Below are positions 11,340 to 33,826 of a DNA stretch of 54,823 bases, one piece after another (position 1 is the stretch's first letter; each line of letters begins with the position of its first letter). Location of the stretch: NCBI GenBank assembly GCA_016222905.1, contig JACRPZ010000045.1, forward strand, positions 1 through 54,823, given 5' to 3'. The notes beneath the pieces are model-generated. The model was given only the letters and a program-made list of their open reading frames with translations. It ran no database searches and was not told the DNA's origin. This DNA is from Nitrospirota bacterium. GTDB lineage: Bacteria; Nitrospirota; Thermodesulfovibrionia; UBA6902. Position numbers and translations under genes: made by a program.

Positions 11340-12536
11340 ATGAGCGGAAAGCACAAAACACCAATGTTGGATGAGCTCGAAAAAGGGCCGTGGCCAAGCT
11401 TCGTAACAGAGATTAAGAAGGCTTCTAAAACCAGCTCCATGCCGAATATGGCAGATGATGAGCTGGGCCAGGTCGAAAAATCATATAGAACCAAGCGCGG
11501 ATACTGGAAGCACGGCGGTATCGTCGGGGTTCTCGGTTACGGCGGCGGAGTTATCGGCAGGTATTCTTCTCTGCCAGAGGAATTTCCGGGAGTTGCGCAC
11601 TTTCATACAGTCAGGCTAAACCAGCCGAGCGGCTTCTTCTACACCGCAGAGGCGTTAAAAATGATCTGCGATATATGGGACAAGTACGGAAGCGGAATGA
11701 CAAACGTTCATGGCTCCACAGGCGACCTGGTTCTCCTCGGGACCACCACTGAACACCTTGAAACCATCTTCGCTGAATATTCATCGCGCGGATGGGACCT
11801 CGGCAGTTCAGGCTCCGCGATGAGGACGCCGAGCTGCTGTGTAGGACAGGCCCGCTGTGAGTGGTCAAATATAAATTCAATGGATATCTGCAATGAACTC
11901 ACCCAGCATTTTCAGGACCAGATGCACAGGCCTTCTTTCCCGTATAAATTCAAGATAAAGGTATCAGGCTGCGCATGCGACTGTGTCGCTGCTATTGCGC
12001 GCGCTGACTGTTCAATTATCGGCACATGGAAGGGCAACATTCAGATAGACCAGGCAGAGGTCAAGAAGTATGCTGATGCCGGAATGGACATACAGAAAGA
12101 GATAATTGAGATGTGTCCGACAAACTGCATGTCTTATAAAAACAGCCAGATAAAGATAGCCGATGCAGAGTGCAACAGGTGCATGCACTGTATAGCAAAA
12201 ATGACAAAGGCTTTAAGGCCGGGCAAGGAGAAGGGCGCGACCATACTTATAGGAAGCAAGGCCCCTATCGTTGTCGGTTCACTTCTTTCATGGGTCGTTG
12301 TTCCGTTCATTAAGTGTGAAGCTCCATATACTGAACTTACAGAAATGATTGAAAAGATTATCGAGTGGTGGGATGACAATGCCAAGCCGAGAGAGAGGAT
12401 AGGAGAGCTTATCGAGGTTAAAGGCATGAGGCCGTTCCTTGAGGCCATAGGTGTTCCGCCTCAGCCCCAGCAGGTATTTGAACCGAGAAAAGACCCGTTC
12501 TTCTTCTGGTCGGAAGGCGATCTCGAGAGAAAATAA
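11340..12536 (+). CDS. dsrA: Dissimilatory sulfite reductase subunit alpha
   Basis: 398 residues. With DsrB it forms the cytoplasmic alpha2-beta2 enzyme that reduces sulfite by six electrons and transfers the sulfur to DsrC. The sirohaem-[4Fe-4S] ligand set is C167-x5-C173 followed by C211-x3-C215 (SGCACDC). The inserted ferredoxin domain has C259, C263, C278, C281 and C284. RBS AGGAGG lies 7 bp before ATG. The GSTGDL and RTPSCC segments are typical of DsrA. Adjacent dsrB and dsrD favour the reductive type, though dsrD alone does not rule out oxidation or disproportionation; no dsrEFH or dsrL is present in the window. A 39-bp gap to dsrB indicates co-transcription. Confidence 0.97.
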   Translation: MSGKHKTPMLDELEKGPWPSFVTEIKKASKTSSMPNMADDELGQVEKSYRTKRGYWKHGGIVGVLGYGGGVIGRYSSLPEEFPGVAHFHTVRLNQPSGFFYTAEALKMICDIWDKYGSGMTNVHGSTGDLVLLGTTTEHLETIFAEYSSRGWDLGSSGSAMRTPSCCVGQARCEWSNINSMDICNELTQHFQDQMHRPSFPYKFKIKVSGCACDCVAAIARADCSIIGTWKGNIQIDQAEVKKYADAGMDIQKEIIEMCPTNCMSYKNSQIKIADAECNRCMHCIAKMTKALRPGKEKGATILIGSKAPIVVGSLLSWVVVPFIKCEAPYTELTEMIEKIIEWWDDNAKPRERIGELIEVKGMRPFLEAIGVPPQPQQVFEPRKDPFFFWSEGDLERK

Positions 12537-12575
12537 AAATAAATAATAATAAAATCTATTTAAGGAGGAAACGTT

Positions 12576-13646
12576 ATGGCATTACCCAAAAGACAGACAG
12601 ACATAGGCCCGCCTCATTATGAAAAGTTCTTACCGCCGGTCATTAAGAAGAACTACGGCAAGTGGAAATATCATGAGGTATTAACCCCCGGCACAATGGT
12701 GCATGTAGCTGAGAGCGGGGACAAGATTTTTACGGTTAGGGCTGCATCTCCGAGGATACTGAGCACAGCGACCATACGCGAGATAAGCGAACTGGCAGAG
12801 AAGTATTGTGACGGGTATCTCCGTTTCACGACAAGAAACAATATAGAGTTTCTTTTGTCGGACGAGAGCAAGATGAAGCCCCTTCTGGCAGAATTGAAGG
12901 AGAAAAAATATTCGGTCGGCGGTATCGGCCCAAGGGTAAGTAATATAATTCATACTCAGGGCTGGGTGCACTGCCACAGCGCATGTACAGACGCTTCAGG
13001 TATCGTGAAAGCTGTAATGGATGAACTCCATGACTACTTTACCACCAAAGAGCTGCCCAATAAGGTAAGGCTTGCTGTTGCATGCTGCGTTAACATGTGC
13101 GGCGCTGTCCACTGCTCAGACATAGCGGTTGTTGCGGTCCATAGAAAACCGCCCGTCGTTGACCATGCGATGGTAACAAAATCCTGTGAGATACCGACAA
13201 CTATCGGTTCATGCCCGACTGCTGCAATAAGGCCGAATCCGAAGGACAAGTCAATAACGATAAATGAAGAGAGATGCATGTACTGCGGAAACTGCTTTAC
13301 CGTATGTCCTCCTATTAACATACACAACCCTGAGGAGGATGGCGTTGCGATAGTGGTTGGCGGAAAGATAGGAAGTCTGAGAACAGATCCAAAATTCTCA
13401 AAACTGGCTATTCCTTTCATCTACAACGACCCTCCGAGATGGCCGAAGGTTGTTGATGCTATCAAGAATATCCTTGAGACATATGCCAAACATGCCAAAA
13501 AGCATGAGAGGGTTGGAGAATGGATCGAGAGGATCGGCTGGGAGAGCTTCTTTAAGCTTACAGGGATACAGTTTACCTTCCAGCACATTGATGACTTCAC
13601 GTTCATGAGAGATACTCTCAGGACATCAGCAGCATTTAAGTACTAA
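12576..13646 (+). CDS. dsrB: Dissimilatory sulfite reductase subunit beta
   Basis: 356 residues, partner of DsrA. Visible are the R-x-T-x-R-N segment (RFTTRNNIEFL, about 81-91), the GWVHCHSACTDASG segment (about 128-141), and ACCVNMCGAVHCSDIA (about 168-183), which carries the cysteines of the second sirohaem/cluster site. A [4Fe-4S] ferredoxin insert follows with ERCMYCGNCFTVCPP (about 227-241). RBS AAGGAGG is close to the ATG. In DsrB the usual fingerprint is HCHTPATDAS; here it reads HCHSACTDAS, with an extra Cys. A strong hairpin after the stop separates dsrAB from dsrD. Confidence 0.97.
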   Translation: MALPKRQTDIGPPHYEKFLPPVIKKNYGKWKYHEVLTPGTMVHVAESGDKIFTVRAASPRILSTATIREISELAEKYCDGYLRFTTRNNIEFLLSDESKMKPLLAELKEKKYSVGGIGPRVSNIIHTQGWVHCHSACTDASGIVKAVMDELHDYFTTKELPNKVRLAVACCVNMCGAVHCSDIAVVAVHRKPPVVDHAMVTKSCEIPTTIGSCPTAAIRPNPKDKSITINEERCMYCGNCFTVCPPINIHNPEEDGVAIVVGGKIGSLRTDPKFSKLAIPFIYNDPPRWPKVVDAIKNILETYAKHAKKHERVGEWIERIGWESFFKLTGIQFTFQHIDDFTFMRDTLRTSAAFKY

Positions 13647-15777: not shown

Positions 15778-16248
15778 TCAGATTTCTTCTTTCCACATGC
15801 GGGGATCATAACAAAATTCCTCAGGGGTACCGATTATTATTCTTTGAAAATCCGGATGGATAGTATTCAGGATGAAATTGCATTCCGACGAAATTAACGC
15901 GGAAGGCGCTTTAAGGACAGCGGTTTGACCTTGTGCCAGCCATGCGGCGCCATATCCTTTAAGTGAATCCGGCGCCGGGCTTTCTTTCCAATTATCCGGC
16001 AAAGAACTGATGTCAATATCTGTAATTCTCACTTCTCTATGAATTTCCACTTTAAAACATACGAAATGAATATTTTGCCCTTCATCCCCGATTTGTACAA
16101 ACTGCTCAAGCGCGGCTAATGATTCAGTCTGGGCCGTATAAACAGCGGGCAACCCTCTGGGGGTCCAGCGCCCGCCCCTTCTCCTGGAGCCTTCTCCATC
16201 AAAGGCAGAAGCCGCGTATTTCTTCTTTGCAATACGCCAGCAAAGCAC
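15778..16248 (-). CDS. RES-domain toxin
   Basis: 156 residues with the RES-family pattern: an early Arg (CWRI), GGRWTPRGLPAVYTA (about 25-39) and a conserved Glu in the SLAALEQF stretch (about 43-50), with a late Ser. RES toxins deplete NAD+ by phosphorolysis or hydrolysis. It starts with GTG sharing one base with the stop of the upstream antitoxin gene (TAGTG), a tight toxin-antitoxin arrangement. The pair is convergent with dsrN, ending 6 bp from its stop. Confidence 0.85.
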   Translation of the reverse strand: MLCWRIAKKKYAASAFDGEGSRRRGGRWTPRGLPAVYTAQTESLAALEQFVQIGDEGQNIHFVCFKVEIHREVRITDIDISSLPDNWKESPAPDSLKGYGAAWLAQGQTAVLKAPSALISSECNFILNTIHPDFQRIIIGTPEEFCYDPRMWKEEI

Positions 16249-16721
16249 TAAACAAGGACCCCATATTCTATTTTTTCAAGCAAGTCCTCAACTTCCTGCG
16301 CACCCGCCTCTGTCTGTATAACTTGTATCGGCACCCTTCCTCCCAAACCTCTCTGAGCCCTGTGCAGCCATTTCCGGGCCATTTCTTCACTCTCAAGAAC
16401 AGAAACGGCAAGGGCAAATATCCTTGCCATGCGGAAAAGCCTGTCGCCCTCCGGTATCGAGAGCTTCTCCTGAGAATCTCGCTTCCTCTGCAATGTTCTG
16501 AGGCTTATCCCCAGGTAATCCGCAAATTCATTATCCGTAAGATTCAGGGCCGCTTTCACGAGGCGGACCTTGGCATACGGGATTCCTTTCCGAATGATGG
16601 AATCAAAGGGGAGCATCCCCTTGTCCCTCTCTTTTGGCTTCAGGTCTGAATCTTTCAACCCAAGCGTCCCGATAATCATCTTCTTTATTTCTTCATTTTC
16701 AAAAGATAGAGTTGTAGCCAT
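16248..16721 (-). CDS. Xre/ParS (DUF2384) antitoxin of the RES toxin
   Basis: 157 residues. A helix-turn-helix lies around 65-90 (LNLTDNEFADYLGISLRTLQR) and a MbcA/ParS/Xre C-terminal toxin-binding domain from about 100 on, including LFRMARIFALAVSVLES and ARKWLHRAQRGLGGR. It ends VPIQVIQTEAGAQEVEDLL with the usual TEAG-x-x-V-E-D-x-L-x-x-I-E-YG signature. Its placement directly upstream of the RES gene with a one-base overlap fixes the pairing. RBS AGGAG precedes the ATG. Confidence 0.87.
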   Translation of the reverse strand: MATTLSFENEEIKKMIIGTLGLKDSDLKPKERDKGMLPFDSIIRKGIPYAKVRLVKAALNLTDNEFADYLGISLRTLQRKRDSQEKLSIPEGDRLFRMARIFALAVSVLESEEMARKWLHRAQRGLGGRVPIQVIQTEAGAQEVEDLLEKIEYGVLV

Positions 16722-16851
16722 TTGTTACTCCTTTCCTCTTATGCCGGGGGCATCTTGTTTGCCTTTTGGCTTTATTATAGCGACAAATGACGCTTAATGC
16801 AAGTTTTCACGTTTACCGCAAAAATGGAGAATCCCAAGCCGATTGGTTAGC

Positions 16852-16894
16852 TTGCTTTTCACTATATCCTTACATATAATTATATGTAAGGATA
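16852..16894 (+). promoter_or_regulatory. Promoter embedded in a 30-bp perfect palindrome (AbrB/VapC operator)
   Basis: Bases 16865-16879 (TATCCTTACATATAA) are followed at once by their exact reverse complement, 16880-16894. The palindrome contains TATAAT (16875-16880), with TTGCTT at 16852-16857 exactly 17 bp upstream. A dimeric antitoxin bound here would block the -10 region, giving classical autorepression. It lies 22 bp before the antitoxin ATG. Confidence 0.75.
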
Positions 16895-16916
16895 AATAGT
16901 TCTGTAAGGAGATATC

Positions 16917-17174
16917 ATGACAGCACTTGCAAAAGTTACATCCAAAGGACAGATTACACTGCCGAAAGAGGTCAGAGAGCTGCTCCATATCCAGACCGGC
17001 AGCATCGTGATTTTTGAGAAGGAAGAAGAAAGGCTTGTTGTTAAGACTGCGAGGACGCTTCGGGATTTCAAGGGAGTTCTGAAAGGCAGGCAGAAGCAGA
17101 CTGACTTTGAGGAGATGAGAAAAAAGGCAAAAGAATACGTCGGTAAAAAGGGCGCGCAGAGTGGACAAGAGTAA
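16917..17174 (+). CDS. AbrB/SpoVT-type antitoxin
   Basis: 85 residues. The first 45 form a swapped-hairpin AbrB fold: AKVTSKGQITLPKEVRELL then GSIVIFEKEEERLVV. The C-terminal tail (about 55-85) is basic and would wrap the toxin. RBS AAGGAG precedes the ATG. The gene overlaps the downstream PIN toxin by 14 bp and follows the 30-bp palindrome, which it probably binds. Confidence 0.88.
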   Translation: MTALAKVTSKGQITLPKEVRELLHIQTGSIVIFEKEEERLVVKTARTLRDFKGVLKGRQKQTDFEEMRKKAKEYVGKKGAQSGQE

Positions 17175-17580
17175 GCGTATCGCTATAGATACAAACCTGC
17201 TCATCAGATACTTTGTAAATGATGACAGCCGCAAGGCTCAGATAGTTGACACGCTCTTAAAAAAGGCCGGCAAAGGCGAAGTCCATATCCTTTTGCCTTC
17301 TATTGTCGTGGCAGAACTCGTCTGGGTGCTTGAGAGCTTTTATAAGATGGAAACTGCCGAGATTGCCGATCTTGTAGACTCGATCCTGAATACCCCGGGC
17401 CTCACCGTATCAGACGAGTCAGTGGTCCGCTCTGCTCTCAGGCGATACAAAACCAAAGGCGTTGATCTCGTGGACGCCTGGATCGCCGCCTTTGCGCAGG
17501 ACAAAGGAGTAAATGAGATACATACCTTTGACAAGAAGCATTTCAAAGGCATAGAGGGCGTCGCGGTTATGCAGATGTGA
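17161..17580 (+). CDS. VapC-type PIN-domain toxin
   Basis: 139 residues with the acidic PIN residues: D9 (AIDTNLLIRYF), a Glu in VVAELVWVLES (about 45-55), then D-x-x-D/A-W-I-A-A (VDLVDAWIAAFA, about 100-111) and the terminal THTFDKKHF-like Asp. Predicted Mg-dependent RNase. The GTG start at 17161 lies inside the antitoxin gene, indicating translational coupling. Confidence 0.88.
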   Translation: MDKSKRIAIDTNLLIRYFVNDDSRKAQIVDTLLKKAGKGEVHILLPSIVVAELVWVLESFYKMETAEIADLVDSILNTPGLTVSDESVVRSALRRYKTKGVDLVDAWIAAFAQDKGVNEIHTFDKKHFKGIEGVAVMQM

Positions 17581-19441: not shown

Positions 19442-19963
19442 ATGAAAAGATCCTTTGCGATTGTATCAACTGTCTCAATCTTTATTCTATTCATCGCTGC
19501 AGTCAGTATCGCAGTTTCATCTAAAACAGCGGTTGCCCCGGCTCCAAACGGAATAACTTTACCTGATGGTTACACGGGCTGGAGACTAATATCATCTTCT
19601 CATCGGACGGACAATAACACTCTGCGGGTAATACTTGGAAATGATAAAGCGATTCAAGCCGCCGCAGAAGGCAAGACTAATCCATGGCCTGATGGTTCTA
19701 TATTAGCCAAATTAGTCTGGAAAGATGCTACGCATGAAAAATGGCCGACCGCAACTATTCCGGGGAAATTCGTGCATGCAGAATTCATGTTTAAGGATGC
19801 GAAGAAATTCTCTGCAACCGGAGGATGGGGTTTTGCGCGGTGGCTCGGTATGGAACAGCAGCCTTACGGCAAGGACGCTGACTTCGCGCAGGAATGTTTT
19901 GGCTGTCATCTTCCTGTCAAGGATAATGACTATGTCTTTACGCATCCTGCTATGCTGCCATAA
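19442..19963 (+). CDS. Cytochrome P460-family monohaem protein
   Basis: 173 residues with a signal peptide (about 1-28). The body fits the cytochrome P460 family: LPDGYTGWRLISSSHRTDNNTLRVILGN (about 40-67), a WPDGSILAKLVWK block (about 80-92), and the C-terminal CFGCH haem site (about 156-160) with VFTHPAMLP at the end. Family members oxidise hydroxylamine or handle NO in periplasm; in sulfate reducers a detoxification role is likely. The family-defining Lys crosslink to haem cannot be confirmed by eye. RBS AGGAGG is strong. Confidence 0.85.
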   Translation: MKRSFAIVSTVSIFILFIAAVSIAVSSKTAVAPAPNGITLPDGYTGWRLISSSHRTDNNTLRVILGNDKAIQAAAEGKTNPWPDGSILAKLVWKDATHEKWPTATIPGKFVHAEFMFKDAKKFSATGGWGFARWLGMEQQPYGKDADFAQECFGCHLPVKDNDYVFTHPAMLP

Positions 19964-20194: not shown

Positions 20195-20288
20195 TTTGCA
20201 TTCATGCAAAGGTTTTGCATATATGCAAAGATTAACCTACCCTTTTCTCTTTAAATTCAATAAATTAAAGCTTGGCACGGATAGTGCA
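20195..20288 (+). promoter_or_regulatory. Sigma-54 promoter with two upstream activator sites (promoter 1)
   Basis: TTGGCACGGATAGTGCA (20272-20288) has the sigma-54 -24/-12 elements: GG at 20274-20275, exactly ten bases, then GC at 20286-20287. Upstream are two perfect palindromes, TTTGCATTCATGCAAA (20195-20210) and TTTGCATATATGCAAA (20214-20229), 19 bp centre to centre. The nearer one is centred 52.5 bp from the -24 GG. The same arrangement occurs at 21325-21418. The likely activator is the NtrC-type regulator at 26384. Confidence 0.8.
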
Positions 20289-20332
20289 TTTATTAAGTTA
20301 TGAAAACAAAACATAGAGAGGAGGAAAAGAAA

Positions 20333-20656
20333 ATGAAAAGCACGATAGCAAACAGACTCGGTTACCTGGGAGCAGGAGTAGGACTTGCCCTTTTTGCAGT
20401 TTTTGGGCTTCTGTACGGTTCATTGATAGGAGGAGTTGTTGGGTTGAACATAGTAAATACCGTATTTGGCGCTCCGTTAGGGTCAGCGTTAATCCCAAGA
20501 ATTATCGTAGCTCTTGGAATGCTTACAGGCATACTGTCAGCATGCGCGATATTTGTAGTGGGAAGCGGAGCTATTGGATGGGTAATAGGATTATTAATAG
20601 ACCCTGCGACATGGAGCAGCAAAGAAACATTGGCAGAGCAGAAGATAAAACATTAA
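20333..20656 (+). CDS. Small glycine-rich membrane protein A (unknown)
   Basis: 107 residues from the ATG at 20333, chosen because GAGAGGAGG lies 9 bp upstream. An in-frame ATG at 20300 exists but would fall almost on the predicted transcription start. About three membrane segments (8-30, 32-52, 60-95) are rich in Gly-x-x-Gly steps (YGSLIGGVVGLNIV). The C-terminus is short and basic. It is 40-50% similar by eye to the next gene: both have L-x-x-G-x-x-G-L-x-L-F-A-x-x-G-L-L-x-G-S-L-I-G-G. I do not recognise the family. First gene of a sigma-54 transcript. Confidence 0.75.
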   Translation: MKSTIANRLGYLGAGVGLALFAVFGLLYGSLIGGVVGLNIVNTVFGAPLGSALIPRIIVALGMLTGILSACAIFVVGSGAIGWVIGLLIDPATWSSKETLAEQKIKH

Positions 20657-20695
20657 ACATAAATATATAAACAAAACAAACAAGGAGGAAGAGAG

Positions 20696-21016
20696 ATGGA
20701 AACAAGAGATATGGCAAAAAAAGGATTATACGTAGGAACAGGGGCCGGACTTGTACTGTTTGCGCTGGTAGGGCTGCTTCCGGGTTCATTAATAGGCGGA
20801 GTAATAGGACTGAAGGTGATAGGAAGTATATTTGGGTCATTAAGTTCCGCTATCCTGCCGAGACTGCTGTTAGCAGTATCAATGATAATGGGAGTATTGG
20901 TATCGGCTACAGTATGTCTGCTTGGATCCGGGATGATCGGATACTCCATTGGGTTTTTAATGGATTCAGTCGGTCAGAGAGCAGCGGTAGAGACACCGGT
21001 TACGGTAAAGGAATAA
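20696..21016 (+). CDS. Small glycine-rich membrane protein B (paralogue of A)
   Basis: 106 residues, tandem paralogue of the preceding gene, 39 bp downstream with a good AAGGAGG ribosome-binding site. It has the same three hydrophobic, glycine-zipper-like segments (GLLPGSLIGGVIGLKVIG; LPRLLLAVSMIMGVLV; LGSGMIGYSIGFLMD). The pair probably forms homo- or hetero-oligomers in the membrane. Function unknown. A hairpin follows 18 bp after the stop, so the two genes make a complete transcript. Confidence 0.75.
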   Translation: METRDMAKKGLYVGTGAGLVLFALVGLLPGSLIGGVIGLKVIGSIFGSLSSAILPRLLLAVSMIMGVLVSATVCLLGSGMIGYSIGFLMDSVGQRAAVETPVTVKE

Positions 21017-21034
21017 CAACTACAAGTAAACAAC

Positions 21035-21083
21035 ATAAGGACAGGGCCTGAGGATTGTGAACGCAATCAAGCCCTGTCCTTAT
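21035..21083 (+). terminator. Hairpin ending the tandem membrane-protein transcript
   Basis: ATAAGGACAGGGC (21035-21047) pairs perfectly with GCCCTGTCCTTAT (21071-21083). Inside it GATTG and CAATC form a second stem. No long T-run follows, so it may work with Rho or as a 3'-stabilising structure. Confidence 0.7.
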
Positions 21084-21091
21084 CAATCCGC

Positions 21092-21280
21092 AGTTAACCC
21101 GAAAAATGCAGATATTGCTCAATCAGATAATTAACTCAATGAATTTATTGAAATAATGTTCAGTAGGTTTTGAATAAAAAAGTGCACGCTCAGATTTATT
21201 TGTATTGAGGCTAAGGTATCGTCCCGAAGCATCGGGATCACAACATCTGCATTTTTCTTAATGCATTTTCTGGGTTAACT
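21092..21280. mobile_element. Putative 189-bp MITE-like element
   Basis: The left end AGTTAACCCGAAAAATGCA (21092-21110) matches the reverse complement of the right end (21262-21280) at 17 of 19 positions. A second inner repeat, GAAAAATGCAGAT (21101-21113), is the exact complement of 21245-21257. The interior has no ORF and includes a TCCCGAAGCATCGGGA palindrome (21223-21238) also found at 47723-47738. No target-site duplication is evident. It sits just upstream of the activator sites of promoter 2. Confidence 0.5.
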
Positions 21281-21324
21281 TCACTGTTGATTCTCAAATC
21301 TATTTGCAAAAAATCCAAAATATT

Positions 21325-21418
21325 TTCGCATTTATGAAAAAATTTGCAATATTGCGAAAATATTTGGGGTATATTATGTTAAAAATCAACAAGTTAGCAT
21401 CTGGAATGTTTAATGCTT
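21325..21418 (+). promoter_or_regulatory. Sigma-54 promoter with paired activator sites (promoter 2)
   Basis: TGGAATGTTTAATGCTT has GG (21403-21404), ten bases, GC (21415-21416), fitting -24/-12 spacing, though the -24 box is weaker than at promoter 1. Upstream are TTCGCA-N4-TGAAAA (21325-21340) and TTTGCA-N4-TGCGAA (21343-21358), 18 bp centre to centre. The nearer site is centred 52.5 bp from GG, the same distance as at promoter 1. Consensus of the four sites: TTYGCA-N4-TGCRAA. It precedes the operon starting at 21457. Confidence 0.72.
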
Positions 21419-21456: not shown

Positions 21457-21798
21457 ATGAAATTTATTGTCAGCAGAAAGATGGTATCTGTAACAGAGAA
21501 GAAGAAACCCTGTGATGAGGCGGTAGAAGAAGAGTTAACAGCATTGGATTATAGAACAGTTAAGACTCTTGAACAGGCTAAAGGAAAGATATGGTACAAA
21601 AGCTGGTTTGAAGGCGGGGAGAATCACAGAGAGGAAGACGGGATAGTTGTCTGTGACAAGAAAGAGAAAGTAAAGGTATGGGTAGTTGAGATCAATAGCC
21701 TTGAAGAATTAGTGGCATTTCAAAGCAGGCACGGGGCAATTGTTATTTTAGACGGCGCTCTTTATAAAGAGTGCACAAAAGAGATCACTATTTTATAA
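21457..21798 (+). CDS. Unknown 113-residue cytoplasmic protein, first gene of the NrfD operon
   Basis: 113 residues, soluble, mixed charged, no signal or membrane segment. It contains two cysteines (C19, C106) and a pattern of alternating strands (KVKVWVVEINSLEELVAFQ; GAIVILDG) that suggests a small alpha/beta fold. I do not recognise the family. RBS GGGGGAGG lies 10 bp before the ATG. Position directly after the sigma-54 promoter and before the NrfD-like gene (38-bp gap) suggests a role in, or control of, that complex. Confidence 0.7.
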   Translation: MKFIVSRKMVSVTEKKKPCDEAVEEELTALDYRTVKTLEQAKGKIWYKSWFEGGENHREEDGIVVCDKKEKVKVWVVEINSLEELVAFQSRHGAIVILDGALYKECTKEITIL

Positions 21799-21836: not shown

Positions 21837-23090
21837 ATGGCAGATGAGTCAACGTCTTCAAAGAAATCAACAATTGTGGGAGAGCTTGCCAGGTCTATTA
21901 ACCCCACGCTTATGTCCGATCTTTATTCTAATGTTATAGAGTTCTTATCAGGCACAAGGTCTTTTTATGTGCTTTTAGTACTTGGTCTTCTAACGGTTTT
22001 CGGGGCCTCAGTTGCAGGGTTGGACGCAATACGTATGGGCTATAGACATGCTTACGGCGTAACTCGTGAGATTTCATGGGGTCTCATAATATCAACCTAT
22101 ATCTTTTTTGTAGTCACTTCAACCGGTCTGTGCATTGTGTCTTCAATAGGGCATGTTTTTGGTGTTAAGAACTTTATGCCTATTGTAAACAGGGCTGTTT
22201 TTCTCTCTGTTGTGACTATATTTGCGGGCTTTACCGTTATTTTTTTCGATATAGAGAACCCCTTCCGTATGGCTATTTACAATGCCATTTCACCAAACAT
22301 GACATCTAATCTATGGTGGATGGGAACTCTCTATGGGGCCTACATGGTTTTTATGGCTATTGAATATGTATTGTTATTGCTGAATAATCACAAGTTTGCT
22401 ACATATGCAGGTCTTGCAGGCCTGATTTCAGGTATTGTTGCTCACAGCAACCTTGGAGCTATTTTCGGAATGCTTCACAGTCGTGACTACTGGTATGGGC
22501 CGTATATGCCTATCTATTTTATAGCCTCCGCAGTTATGTCAGGATGTGCCGCAGTCCTCTTTTTTACCTGGGTTGGATACAAAGTCAATAACGAAAAGAT
22601 GGATAAACCGATGGAACGCGCTTTAGAGGCTGTATCCAAACTCACAATCCTCATGATATCAGTTCTCCTGTTCTTCACGGCATGGAAGGTGATCACAGGG
22701 CTTGTGGGCGCACCTGGCAAACAGGCCGCCATAATGGCCACGCTGGCCGGTCCCTATGCGGTCAATTTCTGGGTTTTCGAAGTAATGCTCGGGATGGTGA
22801 TCCCTTTTGTGCTTATTCTCTATACACGGTTTAAGAATATTAATGTCAGTTTTATTGCCTCAGCTATGATGGTTCTTGGCATCTTTTTTATGAGGTATGA
22901 CCTTGTTATAGTCGGACAGATTGTGCCCGCGTATCATGAATTGGGCATTAATGATGTACCAGCCCTGTTGCCGTACATGCCGTCTTTGCACGAGATCATA
23001 ATAACAATAGGCGGTTTGGGCATTGTGGCATCCGCCTTCCTTATCGGGGAGAGGGTATTCAGGGGTCATAAAGACAGCGGTGTTCACTAA
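21837..23090 (+). CDS. NrfD/PsrC-type quinone-interacting membrane subunit
   Basis: 417 residues from the ATG at 21837, chosen because AAGGGGGAAA precedes it; an in-frame GTG at 21771 would overlap the upstream gene and lacks an RBS. About ten membrane segments follow a cytoplasmic N-terminus. The family pattern REISWGLIISTYIFFVV in an early segment is characteristic of NrfD/DsrP/HmcC proteins, which exchange electrons with menaquinone without cofactors of their own. Sibling of DsrP at 34613 but in a separate, sigma-54-controlled operon with a Fe-S protein and a cytochrome. No catalytic subunit is encoded with it. Confidence 0.9.
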   Translation: MADESTSSKKSTIVGELARSINPTLMSDLYSNVIEFLSGTRSFYVLLVLGLLTVFGASVAGLDAIRMGYRHAYGVTREISWGLIISTYIFFVVTSTGLCIVSSIGHVFGVKNFMPIVNRAVFLSVVTIFAGFTVIFFDIENPFRMAIYNAISPNMTSNLWWMGTLYGAYMVFMAIEYVLLLLNNHKFATYAGLAGLISGIVAHSNLGAIFGMLHSRDYWYGPYMPIYFIASAVMSGCAAVLFFTWVGYKVNNEKMDKPMERALEAVSKLTILMISVLLFFTAWKVITGLVGAPGKQAAIMATLAGPYAVNFWVFEVMLGMVIPFVLILYTRFKNINVSFIASAMMVLGIFFMRYDLVIVGQIVPAYHELGINDVPALLPYMPSLHEIIITIGGLGIVASAFLIGERVFRGHKDSGVH

Positions 23091-23117: not shown

Positions 23118-23861
23118 TTGAAGATAAATACTGAGAATTTAAAAGAAGATATGAATACTGTCAGCAAGATAGAGCGCAGGGAGTTCCTTAAGATTGGGTT
23201 TTTGATAACAGGTGTATTTGCGGGCGGAACAGTATTATCACTGGCATCAAATATAAGAGGAGCCTTTGCGTCAACAGGTGAGTTTACTGAAAAATATCCC
23301 TACAAACCACATTATAGCATGTTAATCCGGCAGAACCTCTGTGTTGACTGTGAACGCTGTATTGAGGCCTGTACAAAAACCAATGAAGTGCCTTCTTATG
23401 GATATCGCACAATAATATTGGAAAAAGTGGTTCCGGATGCTATTGGACAAAAGAGGGAGTTCATACCGGTGCTTTGCAACCAATGCAATAATCCGCCCTG
23501 CGTGAGAGTATGTCCGACGCGCGCCAGTTATAAAGACAAAAACAATGGCATTGTAATGATTGAGCGCAAAAAATGTATAGGCTGTAAAGCCTGTGTGCTT
23601 GCATGCCCTTATAATGCAAGATACTTTAATGAGGAAGTCCACGCGATTGATAAATGCGACTTTTGCTTTGATACGCGCCTCTCAAAAGGAGAGAAACTCA
23701 CAGGTTGTGCAGCAGCATGTCCAACCGGTGCCCGAAAGTTTGGAGACATCTCAGACCCTAATGATTTTGTCTATCAGATGATCCATCAGATTGAAAAACA
23801 GGTGTGGGTAATGCGCCCCGAAGCCGGGACAAAGCCTAATGTCTTCTATATGAAGGCGTAA
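23118..23861 (+). CDS. Tat-exported four-cluster ferredoxin subunit (DsrO/HybA-like)
   Basis: 247 residues. A twin-arginine motif (ERREFLKIG) and hydrophobic stretch mark Tat export. The mature part has four [4Fe-4S] cysteine groups: CVDCERCIEAC, CNQCNNPPCVRVC, CIGCKACVLAC, and CDFCFD...CAAAC. Start: TTG at 23118 with AGGAGG ten bases upstream. An ATG at 23151 would give a more typical Tat n-region but has only a weak RBS. Family members pass electrons between an NrfD subunit and periplasmic cytochromes, which fits the genes on both sides. Confidence 0.9.
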   Translation: MKINTENLKEDMNTVSKIERREFLKIGFLITGVFAGGTVLSLASNIRGAFASTGEFTEKYPYKPHYSMLIRQNLCVDCERCIEACTKTNEVPSYGYRTIILEKVVPDAIGQKREFIPVLCNQCNNPPCVRVCPTRASYKDKNNGIVMIERKKCIGCKACVLACPYNARYFNEEVHAIDKCDFCFDTRLSKGEKLTGCAAACPTGARKFGDISDPNDFVYQMIHQIEKQVWVMRPEAGTKPNVFYMKA

Positions 23862-23932: not shown

Positions 23933-24319
23933 ATGGATAAAAAAAATATTTTTCTCTTTCTTATAATTCTTTCAATAAGCTGTTTAGCAGGGCCTTTGAT
24001 GCTTTCAGCTTCTGATGAAGTTTCCCATGGCGGAGATATAATTTACGACAAGCCTGTCAAGGCTGTCCTGTTCAGTCATAAGGTGCATGCGGAGGACCTT
24101 GGCATGGGCTGCGACTCATGTCATGACGGGATATTTCAGATGGCATCATTGACTGTCCAGAAAGAGGCTGACTTTACTATGGAGGGGCTTAGCAAAGGCA
24201 AGTATTGCGGCGCATGTCATGACGGTTCCATGGCATTTGATTCAGACAGCCAGTGCGCCAGATGTCATATAGGGGTGAAAGGATATGACAGGGCCCAGGG
24301 AATTAAAAGCGGAGAATGA
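23933..24319 (+). CDS. Periplasmic trihaem cytochrome c (c7/c3-like)
   Basis: 128 residues with a signal peptide (about 1-25) and three CXXCH motifs (CDSCH, CGACH, CARCH). Preceding histidines in the FSHKVHAEDLGMGCDSCH pattern are typical of class III cytochrome c7/c3 bis-His haems. RBS AAGGGG precedes the ATG. It completes an NrfD-FeS-cytochrome set that parallels DsrP-DsrO-DsrJ by function, although it is not a DsrJ homologue by sequence. 80 bp separate it from the sensor kinase. Confidence 0.9.
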   Translation: MDKKNIFLFLIILSISCLAGPLMLSASDEVSHGGDIIYDKPVKAVLFSHKVHAEDLGMGCDSCHDGIFQMASLTVQKEADFTMEGLSKGKYCGACHDGSMAFDSDSQCARCHIGVKGYDRAQGIKSGE

Positions 24320-24399: not shown

Positions 24400-26391
24400 A
24401 TGAAGAGCAGGATAATTATTTTATCTGTCTTTGTCTTTCTTGTCTCCCTCCTTATCGTATTTAATGTTATTTTCCACGAGAGCCTTCGCAATGAATTAGC
24501 CGAGCAATATAACAAACAGCAGCTTCTTATTGCAAAGACCATCTCAGATTCCATTTATAACGCGGTCGAACATCTTGAAGAGGAGATAACATCTCTTGCA
24601 AAACTGCTGGCGATCAGGGGCATTCATAAAAATGAAGGTCTTGAGAAATTTATTACTTCCGCCTTCGAAGAGGCTGATATGGAGATGGATATTGAGCTGA
24701 CAGTTTTTGATAAAGACGGGGCTCAAATATTTTCTCCAAAGAAGGGCAGTTCCTTGTCTGAGGACGATATAAGTTTTTTAAATACGGCCGGAGGGATGAA
24801 GCCGGGAGAAGTTTATTTCCTTGAGAGCATCAAGAAGGATGACAAGAGACTAAAGATGCTAACGCCGATAAAGAAGGAAGGCAGGCTGTTAGGCGCTGTT
24901 TTTCTCAGTATTAATATTGATGATATAAATAAAAAATTTCTTGCCCCGATTACTTCAGGAGAGCGCGGGTATGCATGGATGATTGACAGCACAGGCACAT
25001 TGATTTACCATCCTACTCAGCGTGAGATGATCGGCAACAACCTGTACAGCGCTGATAAGGAGTGTTTCAAATGCCATCGCTCTTTTGAACTTGAAAAAAA
25101 GGTTCTGGAAGGCTCTATTGACTCTGGAAGGTACATTACGCCTGCCGGCGAGGATAAGATCCTTGCCTTCTCAAGAGTGCACATAGGCAGCAATTCATGG
25201 ATAGTATGCGTCTCATCCCCGTACAGTGAAGTTATATCAATAACAAGCAGAAGCATGAAGCTATATTCAGGTTTAGTCGTAGCGATATTTGTAACGGTTT
25301 TTCTGGGCGCCTCTGTTATCGTGCTGAATAACAGACAGAGAGTAAAGACAGAGATGAAGTCGAAAGAAGCGGTTTTGCTTGAAAAACAGAAGCTTGATAC
25401 TATAGTGAGCGCCATCGGCTCCGGGTTGATGTTGTTAGACAATGATAACAGGATACAATGGACAAACAAGACACTGCGGGAATGGGCTGGAGATCTCGAG
25501 GGAAAGAATTGCCGGGTTATATATTCTTCATGCTCTCAAAAGATGGAATCCGAAGATATTACTCACGATATATATAAAGGGCTTTTTGGCAGACAAGGTA
25601 AGATCTTTCAGATAACCTCAGCTCCTGTCAGGGATATGGCAGGAGAAATTATAGGGATGCTGAAGCTTATTCAGGATGTAACAGAGATAAAAAAATTGGA
25701 AGAGAGCATACTTCGCACCCAGAAGCTTGCCGCTCTCGGGCGGGTTGCCGCAGGCATTTCACATGAAATAGGAAACCCGCTCACATCAATTTCTTCATTT
25801 GTCCAGATACTTAAGGAGAGGGCGGAGGATGATTTTACAAAGGAGAGCCTTGAAACCATCCACCGTCATATTATAAGGATAACAGAGATAGTCGGGCAGC
25901 TATCCAGGCTTTCTAAACTTCCGCAGATGGAACTTAAAGAGTGTGACATAAATCACATTATAGAGTCATCTCTTGAGATTGTTAAATATGACAAGAAACT
26001 GAGAAATGTGAAAATAATAAAGGAATTTACTGGCACTATTCCCCCTGTATATGTTGATGAAAATTATCTCTCGCAGGTATTTATTAATCTGATGCTGAAT
26101 GCTGCTGATGCGCTGCAGGATATGGAAGGGACTATTACAATAAGGGCCCTGGTGGATAATAATTCAGTTTTTGTTCAGTTCTCAGACACTGGGATAGGTA
26201 TTCCCGCTGAAAATCTGAGCATGGTATTTGACCCGTTCTTTACCACAAAGGAGAAAGGCACAGGACTTGGGCTTTCCATAAGTTATGAGATATTAGTAAA
26301 ATTCGGCGGTGACTTGAAAGTGGAGAGTCAGGAAAATATGGGGAGCACTTTCTCGGTTGTCCTGCCTTTGAGGAGTTCAGGTAATGGATAA
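24400..26391 (+). CDS. Sensor histidine kinase with a periplasmic c-haem motif
   Basis: 663 residues. Membrane segments at about 4-24 and 287-310 enclose a double-Cache-like periplasmic domain (GERGYAWMIDSTGTLIYHP near 187-206). That domain carries C222-F-K-C225-H226, a complete c-type haem motif. Then a PAS domain (about 325-430), HisKA with the phospho-acceptor H455 (SHEIGNPLTS), and an NtrB-like HATPase with N-, G1 (DTGIGIP) and G2 (GTGLGL) boxes to the end. The gene overlaps the response regulator by 8 bp. A weak TTGACT-17-TATAGT promoter lies at 24363-24391 but would give an almost leaderless message. A haem-bound redox or gas sensor is inferred from the motif. Confidence 0.9.
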   Translation: MKSRIIILSVFVFLVSLLIVFNVIFHESLRNELAEQYNKQQLLIAKTISDSIYNAVEHLEEEITSLAKLLAIRGIHKNEGLEKFITSAFEEADMEMDIELTVFDKDGAQIFSPKKGSSLSEDDISFLNTAGGMKPGEVYFLESIKKDDKRLKMLTPIKKEGRLLGAVFLSINIDDINKKFLAPITSGERGYAWMIDSTGTLIYHPTQREMIGNNLYSADKECFKCHRSFELEKKVLEGSIDSGRYITPAGEDKILAFSRVHIGSNSWIVCVSSPYSEVISITSRSMKLYSGLVVAIFVTVFLGASVIVLNNRQRVKTEMKSKEAVLLEKQKLDTIVSAIGSGLMLLDNDNRIQWTNKTLREWAGDLEGKNCRVIYSSCSQKMESEDITHDIYKGLFGRQGKIFQITSAPVRDMAGEIIGMLKLIQDVTEIKKLEESILRTQKLAALGRVAAGISHEIGNPLTSISSFVQILKERAEDDFTKESLETIHRHIIRITEIVGQLSRLSKLPQMELKECDINHIIESSLEIVKYDKKLRNVKIIKEFTGTIPPVYVDENYLSQVFINLMLNAADALQDMEGTITIRALVDNNSVFVQFSDTGIGIPAENLSMVFDPFFTTKEKGTGLGLSISYEILVKFGGDLKVESQENMGSTFSVVLPLRSSGNG

Positions 26392-27739
26392 AGTTCTTGT
26401 TGTTGATGATGAAATAGACATCAGGAGGGCACTTGAGTTTGTGCTTGTGCGTGAAGGCTATGCTGTTGAAACAGCCTCTAACGGCGCAGAAGCTGTAAAT
26501 AAGTTGAAGGATGAGCATATTGACCTTGTAATAACAGACCTTCGAATGGAGGGAATGGATGGATTTGGCGTTCTGGAGAAATCGCAGGAGATTGCTTCTT
26601 CGACGCCCGTAATAATTATGACCGCTTATGGCTCTATAGAATCAGCGGTTGAGGCGATGAAGAAAGGGGCGGTTGATTATATTATCAAGCCTTTTATGCA
26701 TGAGGAGTTAAAGCTTACAATTAAACGGGTGCTTGAGCACAGCAAACTCTCTCTTGAGAACCAGAGCCTGAGACAACAGCTCAGCCAGTGTTTCGGCTCT
26801 AAAGAAATTATAGGTACATCCGAGCCGATGTCAGGGGTGTTTCATACAGTTGAAAAGGTTGCTCCCACCAGGGCCAATATACTTATTACCGGCGAGAGCG
26901 GGACAGGCAAAGGACTGCTCGCAGAACTTATCCACGAGAACAGCCCGAGAAGGGGCAAGCCTTTTATATCAATAAACTGTGCTGCAATCCCCGAAACCCT
27001 GCTTGAGTCCGAGATATTCGGATATAAGAAAGGCGCTTTTACAGGCGCCACAAAAGACAAAACCGGATTGATGATTATGGCTCATGAGGGGACCCTTTTC
27101 CTTGACGAAATAGGGGATATGCCGCTTCCGCTGCAGTCAAAGCTGCTTAAGGTAATTGAGACAGGGGAGGTTTTGCCGCTTGGGGATACCAGGATGAAGG
27201 TCGTGGATATTCGTATCATCTCAGCCGTAAATAAAGATATAGAGACCTGCATAAAGAATAAAGAATTCAGAGAGGACCTTTATTACAGGCTGAATGTGCT
27301 GGAGATAAAGATGCCGCCATTAAAGGAGAGAAGGGAGGATATTCCTATTCTTGTGAACCATTTTTTAAGGGAATTTAGCGGTTATGCGGAAGGAAAAGTG
27401 AAGGGAATTGACCAGGCAGCCATTAACGCATTGATATCCTATGAATGGCCCGGAAATGTAAGGGAATTAAGAAATGTTATTGAAAGAGCGGTCATTCTGT
27501 CAGACGGCGACAAAATTACTGCCTCTGATTTTCCGCAACATGTAATGGTTAAAAAGGAACTTAACATTGATAACTCTTCTGCAGGGCCTCTGAAATCATT
27601 GGTGTACGAGTATGAAAAGGGGATCATATCAGATGCCATGAAGAAGTATGATGGAAATAAAGAGATGACTGGTAAAGCCCTCGGGATTGACCTTGCGACA
27701 CTCTACAGGAAGATAAATAAATACGGCATAAATGAGTAA
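26384..27739 (+). CDS. NtrC-family sigma-54-dependent response regulator
   Basis: 451 residues. Receiver domain with phospho-acceptor D52 (ITDLRM) and acidic pocket D8-D9. AAA+ domain has Walker A GESGTGKG at 170-177, the sigma-54-contacting GAFTGA at 217-222, and Walker B-like GTLFLDEIGDM near 238-248. A Fis-type helix-turn-helix is at the C-terminus (GKALGIDLATLYRKINKYGI). Overlap with the kinase gene shows a cognate pair. Its targets are probably the two sigma-54 promoters with TTYGCA-N4-TGCRAA sites upstream in this locus, since no other sigma-54 activator is encoded here. Confidence 0.95.
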   Translation: MDKVLVVDDEIDIRRALEFVLVREGYAVETASNGAEAVNKLKDEHIDLVITDLRMEGMDGFGVLEKSQEIASSTPVIIMTAYGSIESAVEAMKKGAVDYIIKPFMHEELKLTIKRVLEHSKLSLENQSLRQQLSQCFGSKEIIGTSEPMSGVFHTVEKVAPTRANILITGESGTGKGLLAELIHENSPRRGKPFISINCAAIPETLLESEIFGYKKGAFTGATKDKTGLMIMAHEGTLFLDEIGDMPLPLQSKLLKVIETGEVLPLGDTRMKVVDIRIISAVNKDIETCIKNKEFREDLYYRLNVLEIKMPPLKERREDIPILVNHFLREFSGYAEGKVKGIDQAAINALISYEWPGNVRELRNVIERAVILSDGDKITASDFPQHVMVKKELNIDNSSAGPLKSLVYEYEKGIISDAMKKYDGNKEMTGKALGIDLATLYRKINKYGINE

Positions 27740-27778: not shown

Positions 27779-28660
27779 TTAAAAGATGAAGGAACGAGGG
27801 TCTTTATATTCGTGGCATTTTGAGCAAAGAGATAATCCCAGCTTTTCGCCTACTTTCCATTCGTGTGCTTTATGACAGTCAAGGCATGAAATCTTTATGT
27901 GTTTGTCATGTCTCCCTATGGTCTGCTGGTTGGTGTGGCAGTTGCTCAGGCAGTCGGCTGAGGCAGGCCTGATTTTGCCGTGAGGTTTATGGCAGTTCCT
28001 GCAATCAACACTGCTCATCGGCGCTTTCTCAGGTATGTTCTTATGGCATTTTAAGCACTTTTCCTTTGTCGGCATAGCTGTTGTGTCGCCATATACATGG
28101 CAGGTTAGGCACGCAAAGCTCTCCATCCCCAGGCCGTGCACCCCTTTATCTTTATGGCATGCCATGCATTTTTTTTCATCCGGCATGAAGTTATGCATGC
28201 TGGCGGCATGGCATTCTTTGCATTCTATCTTCTCCATAAAGACATGCTTTGCATGGCCGTAAGACTTCCTCATTGAAACAGCCCCTTGCGTTGCTTCATC
28301 AAGGTGGCATGTCTTGCAGGTTTCCCATGGCGCGATGCTGCCGTGCTTTTGAGGGGTATGTTCTTTATTGCCGGAGATGACGTATTTTATCAGAAGACTG
28401 TTTTGACTGATAAGGCTCATTGAATGGCAGGTTTGGCAGACTATGTTGTTGTGAGAGCTCTTCTGCCATGAGAGGTAGGACTCCTTCATCAAATGGCATA
28501 ATTCACAATACTGCGGGTCATTTTTAGTAAAGTTATAATATTTATAGCCATTCGCAGCCCCCATTATCACAACCGCGATTATCAGAACGATTACGAGCGG
28601 TTTGGAATTTTCAATGAACCTCGTGATAAATTCGATGATGTATTTATATATTTTACCCAT
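27779..28660 (-). CDS. Membrane-anchored multihaem cytochrome c (NapC/NirT-like, about 11 haems)
   Basis: 293 residues. One N-terminal membrane anchor (about 20-38) is followed by a NapC/NirT-like start (YCELCHLMKESYLSWQKSSHNNIVCQTCH) and then many cytochrome c3-like sites. I count ten CXXCH motifs (CELCH, CQTCH, CKTCH, CKECH, CMACH, CLTCH, CLKCH, CRNCH, CLDCH, CSKCH) and one CX3CH (CLSNCH). It is convergent with the response regulator, 39 bp from its stop. Likely takes electrons from menaquinol across the periplasm. The terminal acceptor is unknown. Confidence 0.9.
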   Translation of the reverse strand: MGKIYKYIIEFITRFIENSKPLVIVLIIAVVIMGAANGYKYYNFTKNDPQYCELCHLMKESYLSWQKSSHNNIVCQTCHSMSLISQNSLLIKYVISGNKEHTPQKHGSIAPWETCKTCHLDEATQGAVSMRKSYGHAKHVFMEKIECKECHAASMHNFMPDEKKCMACHKDKGVHGLGMESFACLTCHVYGDTTAMPTKEKCLKCHKNIPEKAPMSSVDCRNCHKPHGKIRPASADCLSNCHTNQQTIGRHDKHIKISCLDCHKAHEWKVGEKLGLSLCSKCHEYKDPRSFIF

Positions 28661-29710: not shown

Positions 29711-30046
29711 ATGGCTTCAATTGAAGTTGACGGCAAAAGTTATGAGATTGACGATGACGGCTATCTTGTTGACTGGCAGCAGTGGAATGAGAATATAGCT
29801 ACTCATATGGCAAAGGAAGAGGGGATAGACCTTACTGAGGAGCACTGGGAAATTATCAGATTCCTCAGAGACTATTTCCAGAAGTATCAGATTGCCCCTA
29901 TGATAAAGATTCTCACCAAAGAGATCGGGAAGACAATGGGTAAGGAGAAGGGTAACACAAAATACCTTTATCAGCTTTATCCTGCCGGTCCGGCAAAGCA
30001 GGCATGTAAGTATGCCGGGCTTCCAAAACCAACAGGCTGCGTATAA
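29711..30046 (+). CDS. dsrC: DsrC, sulfur-carrier protein
   Basis: 111 residues, the TusE/DsrC family. The C-terminal arm has both redox cysteines: C99 and the penultimate C110, separated by ten residues (ACKYAGLPKPTGCV). This is the diagnostic spacing of true DsrC, which forms the trisulfide product of DsrAB. The WNENIA.. and LTEEHWEIIRFLRDYF segments match the fold core. RBS AAAGGAGG is strong. It is monocistronic, with a hairpin after the stop, and separated from dsrAB by 16 kb. Confidence 0.97.
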   Translation: MASIEVDGKSYEIDDDGYLVDWQQWNENIATHMAKEEGIDLTEEHWEIIRFLRDYFQKYQIAPMIKILTKEIGKTMGKEKGNTKYLYQLYPAGPAKQACKYAGLPKPTGCV

Positions 30047-30061
30047 AAAACTATAAAGATG

Positions 30062-30116
30062 AGCTTAAAGGGTTGGCGTTGCTTATTACTTATTAACAGT
30101 GCCAGCCCTTTAAGCT
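30062..30116 (+). terminator. Large hairpin after dsrC
   Basis: AGCTTAAAGGGTTGGC (30062-30077) pairs with GCCAGCCCTTTAAGCT (30101-30116), with one G-T wobble and a 23-nt loop. The T-run is absent, so it may stabilise the dsrC mRNA as well as limit readthrough. Confidence 0.7.
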
Positions 30117-30207
30117 AAGTCTCAAAATTAATTTATATTGCTGATATGCTGCGGATCGCTGAAAACGGACTCCATGCAGCTTCAGATCGAGATTTGAATT
30201 ATAAAGA

Positions 30208-30726
30208 ATGAACCTCAACGACCTTTTATTAGAGAAAAGATCGGCAATTCTGCAGAAGTGGTTCGATCTGATTATAGAGACTTATCCTGAAGAGACCGCA
30301 AAATTTTTAAAGAGCCAGAAGAATCAGTTCAGCAACCCTGTAGGCCACACAATTTTAGAAGGCATAGAAGAGATCTTTAATGAAGTTCTCGGTGAGCCTG
30401 ACCCAGAAAAGGTTGCTATATATCTTGATAGTATAATCAGGATACGGGCTATACAGGAATTCTCCCCATCAAAAGCGCTAAGTTTTCTTTTTCTGCTCAA
30501 GAAAGTGATAAGGGCAGAAGTTATTAACGAGACCCCTGAATATCATATGCTTGAGGAGCTTTCAGTAATAGAGTCCAGGATTGATGATCTTGTAAATATT
30601 TCTTTTGATATATACATGCAATGCCGCGAGAAGATTTACGAACTTAAGGCAAATGAGGTTAAGAACTGGACATACAGGCTGTTGAAGAAGACGAATATGG
30701 TGAAAGAATATAAGGCGGAATGTTAG
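30208..30726 (+). CDS. RsbRD N-terminal-like protein preceding dsrM
   Basis: 172 residues, all helical: LLLEKRSAILQKWFDLIIETYPEETAKFL at the start and LSVIESRIDDLVNISFDIYMQCREKIYELK at the end. This matches the RsbRD N-terminal globin-like domain (often annotated 'RsbT co-antagonist RsbRD') that commonly sits directly upstream of dsrMKJOP in sulfate reducers. Role unknown; a sensor or assembly factor is plausible. Weak RBS. 71 bp to dsrM. Confidence 0.8.
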   Translation: MNLNDLLLEKRSAILQKWFDLIIETYPEETAKFLKSQKNQFSNPVGHTILEGIEEIFNEVLGEPDPEKVAIYLDSIIRIRAIQEFSPSKALSFLFLLKKVIRAEVINETPEYHMLEELSVIESRIDDLVNISFDIYMQCREKIYELKANEVKNWTYRLLKKTNMVKEYKAEC

Positions 30727-30797
30727 TCGCTGGCATCGAAGTCAAAAAAGTTGAAATATTTTCTCGGAATATCAATGAAGTGAAAGGAGGCAGCTAA

Positions 30798-31787: not shown

Positions 31788-31791
31788 ATAT

Positions 31792-33435: not shown

Positions 33436-33826
33436 TGGAGGCAAGATAATAGCCGGGCTTATAATCTTTTTCGGTTTAGTGACATTCCCTTTTTATTCCA
33501 ATTTTGGAAAAACAGCAAACAAGGTAACCCCGAAACTTGACACTCCTGTTATTAACCAGCTTGAGAAGAAAGAGTGTGTTAAACCAAAAGAGTACATGAG
33601 GACTGAGCACATGAAGGTTCTTGATGAATGGAGAGACGAGGTGGTGCGGGAAGGCAAGAGGGACAAGATGATTGTTGGAGGTATTGAGATTGAGAAGAGC
33701 CTTCAGAACGGATGCTTAAAGTGCCATTCCAATGTTAAGACTTTCTGCGATGTCTGCCATACTTCATCGGGTGTAAAACCATACTGCTGGGATTGCCACT
33801 TTATCAAAGAGGAGGGGCTGTTATGA
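33428..33826 (+). CDS. dsrJ: DsrJ, trihaem cytochrome c
   Basis: 132 residues from the ATG at 33428, chosen because GAGGAGGAAG precedes it; a longer in-frame extension back to 33377 would be inside dsrK. Uncleaved or signal-anchor hydrophobic segment at about 6-20. Three haem motifs are tightly packed at the end: CLKCH, CDVCH, CWDCH. In DsrJ one haem has an unusual His/Cys ligation, and the spare cysteine at about 43 (KKECVKPKEYM) is a candidate ligand. Periplasmic part of the complex. It shares ATGA with dsrO. Confidence 0.95.
   Translation: MYNGGKIIAGLIIFFGLVTFPFYSNFGKTANKVTPKLDTPVINQLEKKECVKPKEYMRTEHMKVLDEWRDEVVREGKRDKMIVGGIEIEKSLQNGCLKCHSNVKTFCDVCHTSSGVKPYCWDCHFIKEEGLL

Follow-up and report, generated by a model that had tools for sequence, protein, structure and literature searches.

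A conserved pair of sigma-54 promoters with paired activator sites and a candidate heme-motif two-component system in a Nitrospirota genome

Results

The source genome consists of 2,835,862 bases (2.84 Mb) in 90 contigs, and the window is the whole 54.8-kb stretch that we analyzed. Two groups of forward-strand genes in it each follow a sigma-54-type promoter. Promoter 1 precedes S1 (20333 to 20656), which encodes an uncharacterized 107-amino-acid hydrophobic hairpin protein, and its paralogue S2 (20696 to 21016; 106 amino acids). Promoter 2 precedes U113 (21457 to 21798), which encodes a conserved protein of 113 amino acids. U113 is followed by genes for an NrfD/PsrC-type membrane subunit (21837 to 23090; Pfam NrfD, E = 5.6e-30), a 4Fe-4S ferredoxin-type subunit resembling NrfC, DsrO, and TtrB (23118 to 23861; Fer4_11, E = 6e-24), and a c7-type cytochrome with three CXXCH motifs (23933 to 24319; Pfam Cytochrome_C7, E = 9e-17; TIGR04257). 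Then come a sensor histidine kinase (24400 to 26391) and an NtrC-type sigma-54 activator (26384 to 27739). Judging from gene order, the promoter 1 unit would be S1-S2 and the promoter 2 unit would run from U113 through NrfD, FeS, cytochrome c7, and kinase to the regulator. U113 had one weak PHROG match and none in Pfam, and its homologues, which are 57 to 70% identical, are found in the same operon elsewhere, recurring in S operons of the NrfD type. The NrfD-type subunit scored below the NCBIfam equivalog cutoffs for NrfD (43.6 against 347.6 bits), HmcC (62.1 against 550), and DsrP (38.4 against 350); the 4Fe-4S subunit was also below its equivalog cutoffs.

By Pfam, DsrA/DsrB-like sulfite reductase genes and DsrC with a DsrMKJOP-like set lie at 11340 to 13646 and 29711 to 35785. 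Because these flank the region, the regulated NrfD operon lies within a dissimilatory sulfur gene cluster. The DsrMKJOP-like set (30798 to 35785) is separate from that operon. A cytochrome P460 family gene, from a family linked to hydroxylamine and NO chemistry, is directly upstream of promoter 1 (19442 to 19963). A gene for a multiheme NapC/NrfH-like cytochrome (27779 to 28660) is convergent with the regulator gene, and its homologues are near the system in several relatives. Farther away, the window encodes a 741-amino-acid protein with repeated ASPM/SPD-2/Hydin-type Ig-like domains (6019 to 8244), here in a bacterial genome, and at 15778 to 17580 visual inspection suggested a RES-type toxin accompanied by an Xre-like partner, together with a PIN-domain-like ORF.

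A sequence-only reading of this DNA had proposed that both promoters have GG-N10-GC elements, each with two upstream TTYGCA-N4-TGCRAA palindromes 18 to 19 bp apart, the nearer one centered 52.5 bp from the -24 GG. On rereading the sequence, we found both GG-N10-GC elements where they had been placed. The promoter 1 element (20273 to 20287, forward strand) is TGGCACGGATAGTGC, and its score of 22.5 compares with a median of 21.3 for promoters of S genes. In the promoter sequence TTGGCACGGATAGTGCATT, GG is at 20274 to 20275 and GC is at 20286 to 20287. The promoter 2 element (21402 to 21416, forward strand) is TGGAATGTTTAATGC; it scores 16.0, between the 5th and 25th percentiles of S promoters, and the promoter sequence CTGGAATGTTTAATGCTTT has GG at 21403 to 21404 and GC at 21415 to 21416. 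Both have a TGGCAY-N5-TTGC-like context, with the positions around the fixed bases conserved.

The dyads, which are given without strand, agreed with the earlier description in all but one letter. At promoter 1, the far dyad (20195 to 20210; TTTGCATTCATGCAAA) and the near dyad (20214 to 20229; TTTGCATATATGCAAA) are exact. Their centers, 20202.5 and 20221.5, are 19 bp apart and lie 71.5 and 52.5 bp from GG. At promoter 2, the near dyad (21343 to 21358; TTTGCAATATTGCGAA) is exact and is also centered 52.5 bp from GG, and the far dyad (21325 to 21340; TTCGCATTTATGAAAA), 18 bp from it and 70.5 bp from GG, has one mismatch. Therefore, the nearer palindrome has the same position at both promoters, and three of the four palindromes are exact.

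Could these be chance palindromes and -24/-12 matches in A+T-rich intergenic DNA? The dyads do lie in A+T-rich DNA, and when two mismatches were allowed, the window had 10 dyads against 11.8 expected. Because that is no excess, significance rests on the exact sites and on their conservation. The 2.84-Mb genome has only three exact dyads, every one at these two promoters, and a scan of the whole window found a sigma-54 site together with a dyad only in these two places. We also scanned 230 genomes of the class for TTTGCAN4TGCRAA-N33,63-TGGN9TGC, using the reversed pattern as a control. There were 83 matches in 50 genomes, and the control gave 1. When the matches were aligned on GG, 93 to 94% had CA after it. 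The scan had left those bases free, and so this supports real -24 elements. Where the fetched DNA reached far enough, the first gene downstream was mostly an S homologue, about 50 bp away.

S genes are present in 99 of the 230 genomes, and examining their starts gave the same picture. Of the 94 starts that had enough upstream DNA, 84 were preceded by a sigma-54 element and an appropriately spaced dyad, and 80 of the 94 had a dyad with at most one mismatch. Only 9 of 1,763 control ORFs in the same loci had an element and a dyad. Ten S starts are without the arrangement. No fewer than four of them belong to second S genes within an operon and others are near contig or locus ends, leaving two (L219 and L221). 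Two subsets are cleaner tests, because the S set was gathered partly through the motif. One is the 37 loci from L199 up, mostly chosen for absence of the exact pattern, in which 31 of 37 S starts carry the arrangement. The other is a sample of 20 S genes that were collected solely by protein match from families elsewhere in the phylum, beyond the class. Upstream DNA was available for 19, and in every one of these the element is accompanied by a dyad at 52.5 to 54.5 bp. The motif is thus conserved upstream of orthologues, the check that the sequence-only reading had called for, and its view that shared motif plus shared geometry is hard to get by chance was justified. We rejected chance palindromes as an explanation on the strength of the genome-wide confinement of exact dyads, the class scan, and the S starts inside and outside the class; the probability that we would still give it is negligible.

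Measured from GG, dyad centers in the 84 promoters group around 52.5, 71.5, and 82.5 bp. Two dyads are present in 71 of them, and the spacing of the pair is mostly 20 or 29 to 30 bp, close to two or three helical turns. These promoters have another shared feature, a match to the integration host factor (IHF) consensus WATCAANNNNTTR (taken from PMC7962754) that starts 18 to 19 bases upstream of GG. In 53 of the 84 promoters it has no more than one mismatch, and in 75 no more than two. Reverse-complement and shifted controls gave 0 of 84, and other sigma-54-like sites gave 1 of 17. In our window, the forward-strand match at promoter 1 (20255 to 20267; ATTCAATAAATTA) has one mismatch and an offset of -19 from GG, as it does class-wide, and the one at promoter 2 (21384 to 21396; AATCAACAAGTTA) is exact. 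Accordingly, WATCARNNNNTTR is present between the activator sites and the promoter, and the genome encodes ihfA and ihfB (IHF alpha and beta) as well as one rpoN. The site is unusually close to the -24 element. We infer that IHF binds this putative element rather than asserting it, because the site is nearer to the -24 element than usual.

At 10 loci (L180, L184 to L188, L190, L191, L193, and L195), the contig breaks off shortly past the promoter, in some cases as near-identical copies, which suggests that multicopy S genes break the assemblies of several relatives. The same operon and promoter also occur at L035, L041, and L043, in genomes labeled Desulfobulbaceae, Campylobacterota, and Hippea, reflecting either horizontal transfer or misbinning.

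The obvious candidate activator, as had been proposed from the sequence, is the regulator encoded at 26384 to 27739. It has the receiver, AAA+, and Fis-type helix-turn-helix (HTH) domains (PF00072, PF00158, and PF02954; Sigma54_activat, E = 1.3e-68) of an NtrC-type enhancer-binding protein. Its gene is in the promoter 2 operon and overlaps the kinase gene by 8 bp. It is not NtrC, AtoC, or ZraR by the NCBIfam cutoffs (407.8 against 558.6, 485.6 against 714, and 388.2 against 760 bits, respectively), and the kinase is below the cutoffs of the NtrBC-, ZraSR-, and AtoSC-type equivalogs. The genome encodes 13 sigma-54 activators, so one of the 12 others might bind the dyads while the adjacent regulator controls something else, and adjacency by itself is no proof of binding. 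The recognition helix argues against this. We compared 41 homologues that, of the 13 activators, match the 26384 protein best; most of these lie next to a related kinase. GIDLATLYRK (27683 to 27712, forward strand) is near-invariant in them, reading G[IV]D[LI]xTLYRK or something closely similar. In the rest of this genome's activators, as far as their HTH is complete, the recognition helix is different. Among S-containing genomes outside the class, 13 of 15 best regulator matches have the same helix. The remaining two are a regulator split by a stop codon (G258) and a best match with a different helix (G299). Like the motif, the helix is therefore near-invariant even across distant lineages.

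Co-occurrence points the same way. We compared S with a close kinase homologue (E ≤ 1e-70) in 200 genomes. Both were present in 71 genomes and both were absent from 105, so they agreed in 176; 12 had S without a kinase match and 12 had a kinase without S (Fisher, 2e-28, a statistic that ignores shared ancestry). Incompleteness of the metagenome-assembled genomes possibly accounts for the mismatched ones. We also fetched NrfD loci irrespective of regulation, and 68 of 79 lacked S, promoter, and kinase-regulator alike, which rules out the arrangement being a general feature of NrfD operons. The promoter is present in 9 of the 10 NrfD loci with S. L036, on a contig that begins just upstream of NrfD, contains the regulator pair, and G005 has no S yet keeps the promoter upstream of U113. 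Thus, the kinase-regulator pair, S, and the motif co-occur both across the class and among NrfD loci. Conservation, co-occurrence, linkage, and the conserved helix uphold the 26384 regulator as the candidate activator. Because the helix is conserved and S, kinase, and promoter occur together, we consider it likely that this regulator binds the dyads of both promoters; binding by one of the other 12 activators is distinctly improbable.

The kinase-regulator genes have the promoter themselves in only 2 of 36 loci, whereas here they are inside the regulated operon. This indicates that autoregulation is lineage specific. For other members of the regulon in this genome, a half-site plus sigma-54 pattern gave 20 matches in 19 places, against 1 for the control, and the matches that we inspected had no full dyad beyond the known promoter. 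From these comparisons, we assign the two sigma-54 promoters to one shared regulon with high confidence. The sequence-only reading had called it a small local regulon. That holds for this genome, where conservation, co-occurrence, and linkage support a regulon of two operons. It is too narrow otherwise, since the arrangement is phylum-wide and marks the S family, not this operon alone. Because it recurs in relatives wherever S and the heme-motif sensor occur, we take it to be a real and deeply conserved genetic switch.

S appears to be the most constant target of this switch across the phylum, judged from gene and promoter sequences. S1 and S2 belong to a family that we aligned as A1 (52 sequences). 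S1 had no match in Pfam, NCBIfam, or PHROGs, and the family had none in NCBIfam or PHROGs and only scattered weak ones in Pfam, among them Oleosin in 2 of 52 members. AF2 modeled S2 as a two-helix hairpin (mean pLDDT, 84). Comparison of this fold of two long helices with the PDB found nothing significant (best E, 5.0), and the S profile had no match among PDB sequences. In other loci, S is found ahead of NrfD operons, as an S-S pair, or ahead of a set of genes for a seven-heme cytochrome, a cytochrome b561-like protein, and a nine-heme cytochrome.

The context of S allows a reading in which the main output is membrane protection, with S stabilizing the inner membrane in a phage-shock-like manner and the electron-transfer modules secondary. 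The constancy of S would fit this, as would the frequent S-S pairs without adjoining cytochrome genes and the weak Oleosin matches. The phage shock (Psp) system is also under sigma-54 and IHF control. On the other hand, Pfam and NCBIfam searches relate S to no Psp family, and many S operons run on into NrfD or multiheme cytochrome genes. We regard membrane protection as the main output as possible but unlikely.

The kinase was assigned dCache_1, PAS, HisKA, and HATPase domains by Pfam. Its sensor has a CXXCH heme c attachment motif (CFKCH; 25063 to 25077, forward strand) in the membrane-proximal Cache module. The motif is in 48 of 48 kinase homologues, comprising the 36 of a class-level set, at about residue 220, and 12 from outside the class (all 11 readable kinases and the one at L293). 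No variation occurs among the 36 aligned sensors in the C, C, and H of the motif, in a His nearby, or in a Met. An AF2 model of the sensor (pLDDT, 86.7) places CXXCH in a helical stretch between strands 171 to 174 and 213 to 217 of the membrane-proximal module. From the motif, covalent attachment of heme c here seems probable.

The best PDB matches of that model are double-Cache ligand-binding domains, several of them amino-acid receptors. Also, the kinase had no match to the sCache_heme model (PF11845; DUF3365/Tll0287) in our Pfam search at E = 0.001, matching dCache_1 instead. Both would suit a sensor without heme or without redox or NO sensing, in which CXXCH is structural or the ligand is a small organic molecule and the signal is an ordinary metabolite. 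The invariance of the three motif residues and of the other His and the Met in the 36 sensors, retention of the motif outside the class, and targets that are electron-transfer genes all speak against such a sensor, and we consider it the less probable case. Heme-based sensing by the kinase is the reading that we favor, if only somewhat. From the motif and the targets, the signal might be redox or NO.

Discussion

We propose that a single two-component system, whose genes close the second operon, controls both promoters. The periplasmic double-Cache kinase (24400 to 26391), probably with covalent heme c, would detect a redox or NO-type signal and phosphorylate the NtrC-type regulator (26384 to 27739). 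The regulator would then bind the paired TTTGCA-N4-TGCAAA dyads. A bend in the DNA, made by IHF at a site that separates the dyads from the -24 element, would let the AAA+ domain reach RNA polymerase-sigma-54 and open the promoter. One output would be S1-S2, the small glycine-rich membrane hairpin proteins. The other would be U113-NrfD-FeS-cytochrome c7-kinase-regulator, which might provide a quinone/cytochrome electron-transfer module and positive autoregulation. The roles given to S and to the NrfD module are those that we infer. Taken as a whole, this account is likely to be right.

In its parts, the switch corresponds to a type already known, the sigma-54 regulon under an NtrC-type two-component system with paired sites and IHF. 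NtrBC, ZraSR, and AtoSC likewise have a regulator with receiver, AAA+, and Fis-type HTH domains, upstream dyads, a -24/-12 promoter, and an IHF-type element. Our system departs from the known ones in its dyad, its targets, and its double-Cache sensor with a heme motif, and the regulator and kinase are below the equivalog cutoffs of all three. There is also a likeness to Desulfovibrio vulgaris. The available part of one report describes sigma-54 regulators that govern electron-transport operons there, for example DVU3142/Ohc, in which the activator is encoded beside an electron-transfer operon and has conserved binding sites (PMC4641369). Neither the S family nor a heme-motif kinase figures in that part of the report.

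For the sensor, the closest likeness is to single-Cache sCache_heme (DUF3365/Tll0287) domains, which have heme c at a similar place. A 2026 preprint stated that no Cache domain with a covalent cofactor had been described before these and proposed that they are NO sensors when fused to signaling modules (PMC12889525). In both kinds, the periplasmic sensor of a signaling protein has a Cache module with CXXCH placed between two of its strands. However, ours is a double Cache (dCache_1), and PF11845 was unmatched at the threshold that we used. The double-Cache CXXCH was possibly acquired separately. Similarly, the NrfD operon resembles NrfCD, DsrJOP, Hmc, and Qrc in having an NrfD membrane subunit, an FeS subunit, and a multiheme cytochrome c, but its subunits are below the equivalog cutoffs and S and U113 genes accompany it. 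In the open-licence literature, we found no earlier description of this switch and no paper on sigma-54 in Nitrospirota.

A bolder interpretation is that this is a phylum-wide sigma-54 regulon, that its heme c double-Cache kinase is distinct from sCache_heme, and that S is the core output, a new membrane hairpin family that either is an obligatory part of periplasmic electron-transfer complexes or forms a new membrane assembly. We offer this tentatively, as a speculation that may well prove wrong. Even so, for a switch that recurs in little-studied and mostly uncultured bacteria, the analysis supplies the binding motif and its geometry, and it names candidates for the activator and the targets. 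It points to a possible periplasmic heme sensor tied to electron-transfer genes and singles out an uncharacterized membrane protein family. The signal, the activator, and the output of the switch can each be tested directly.
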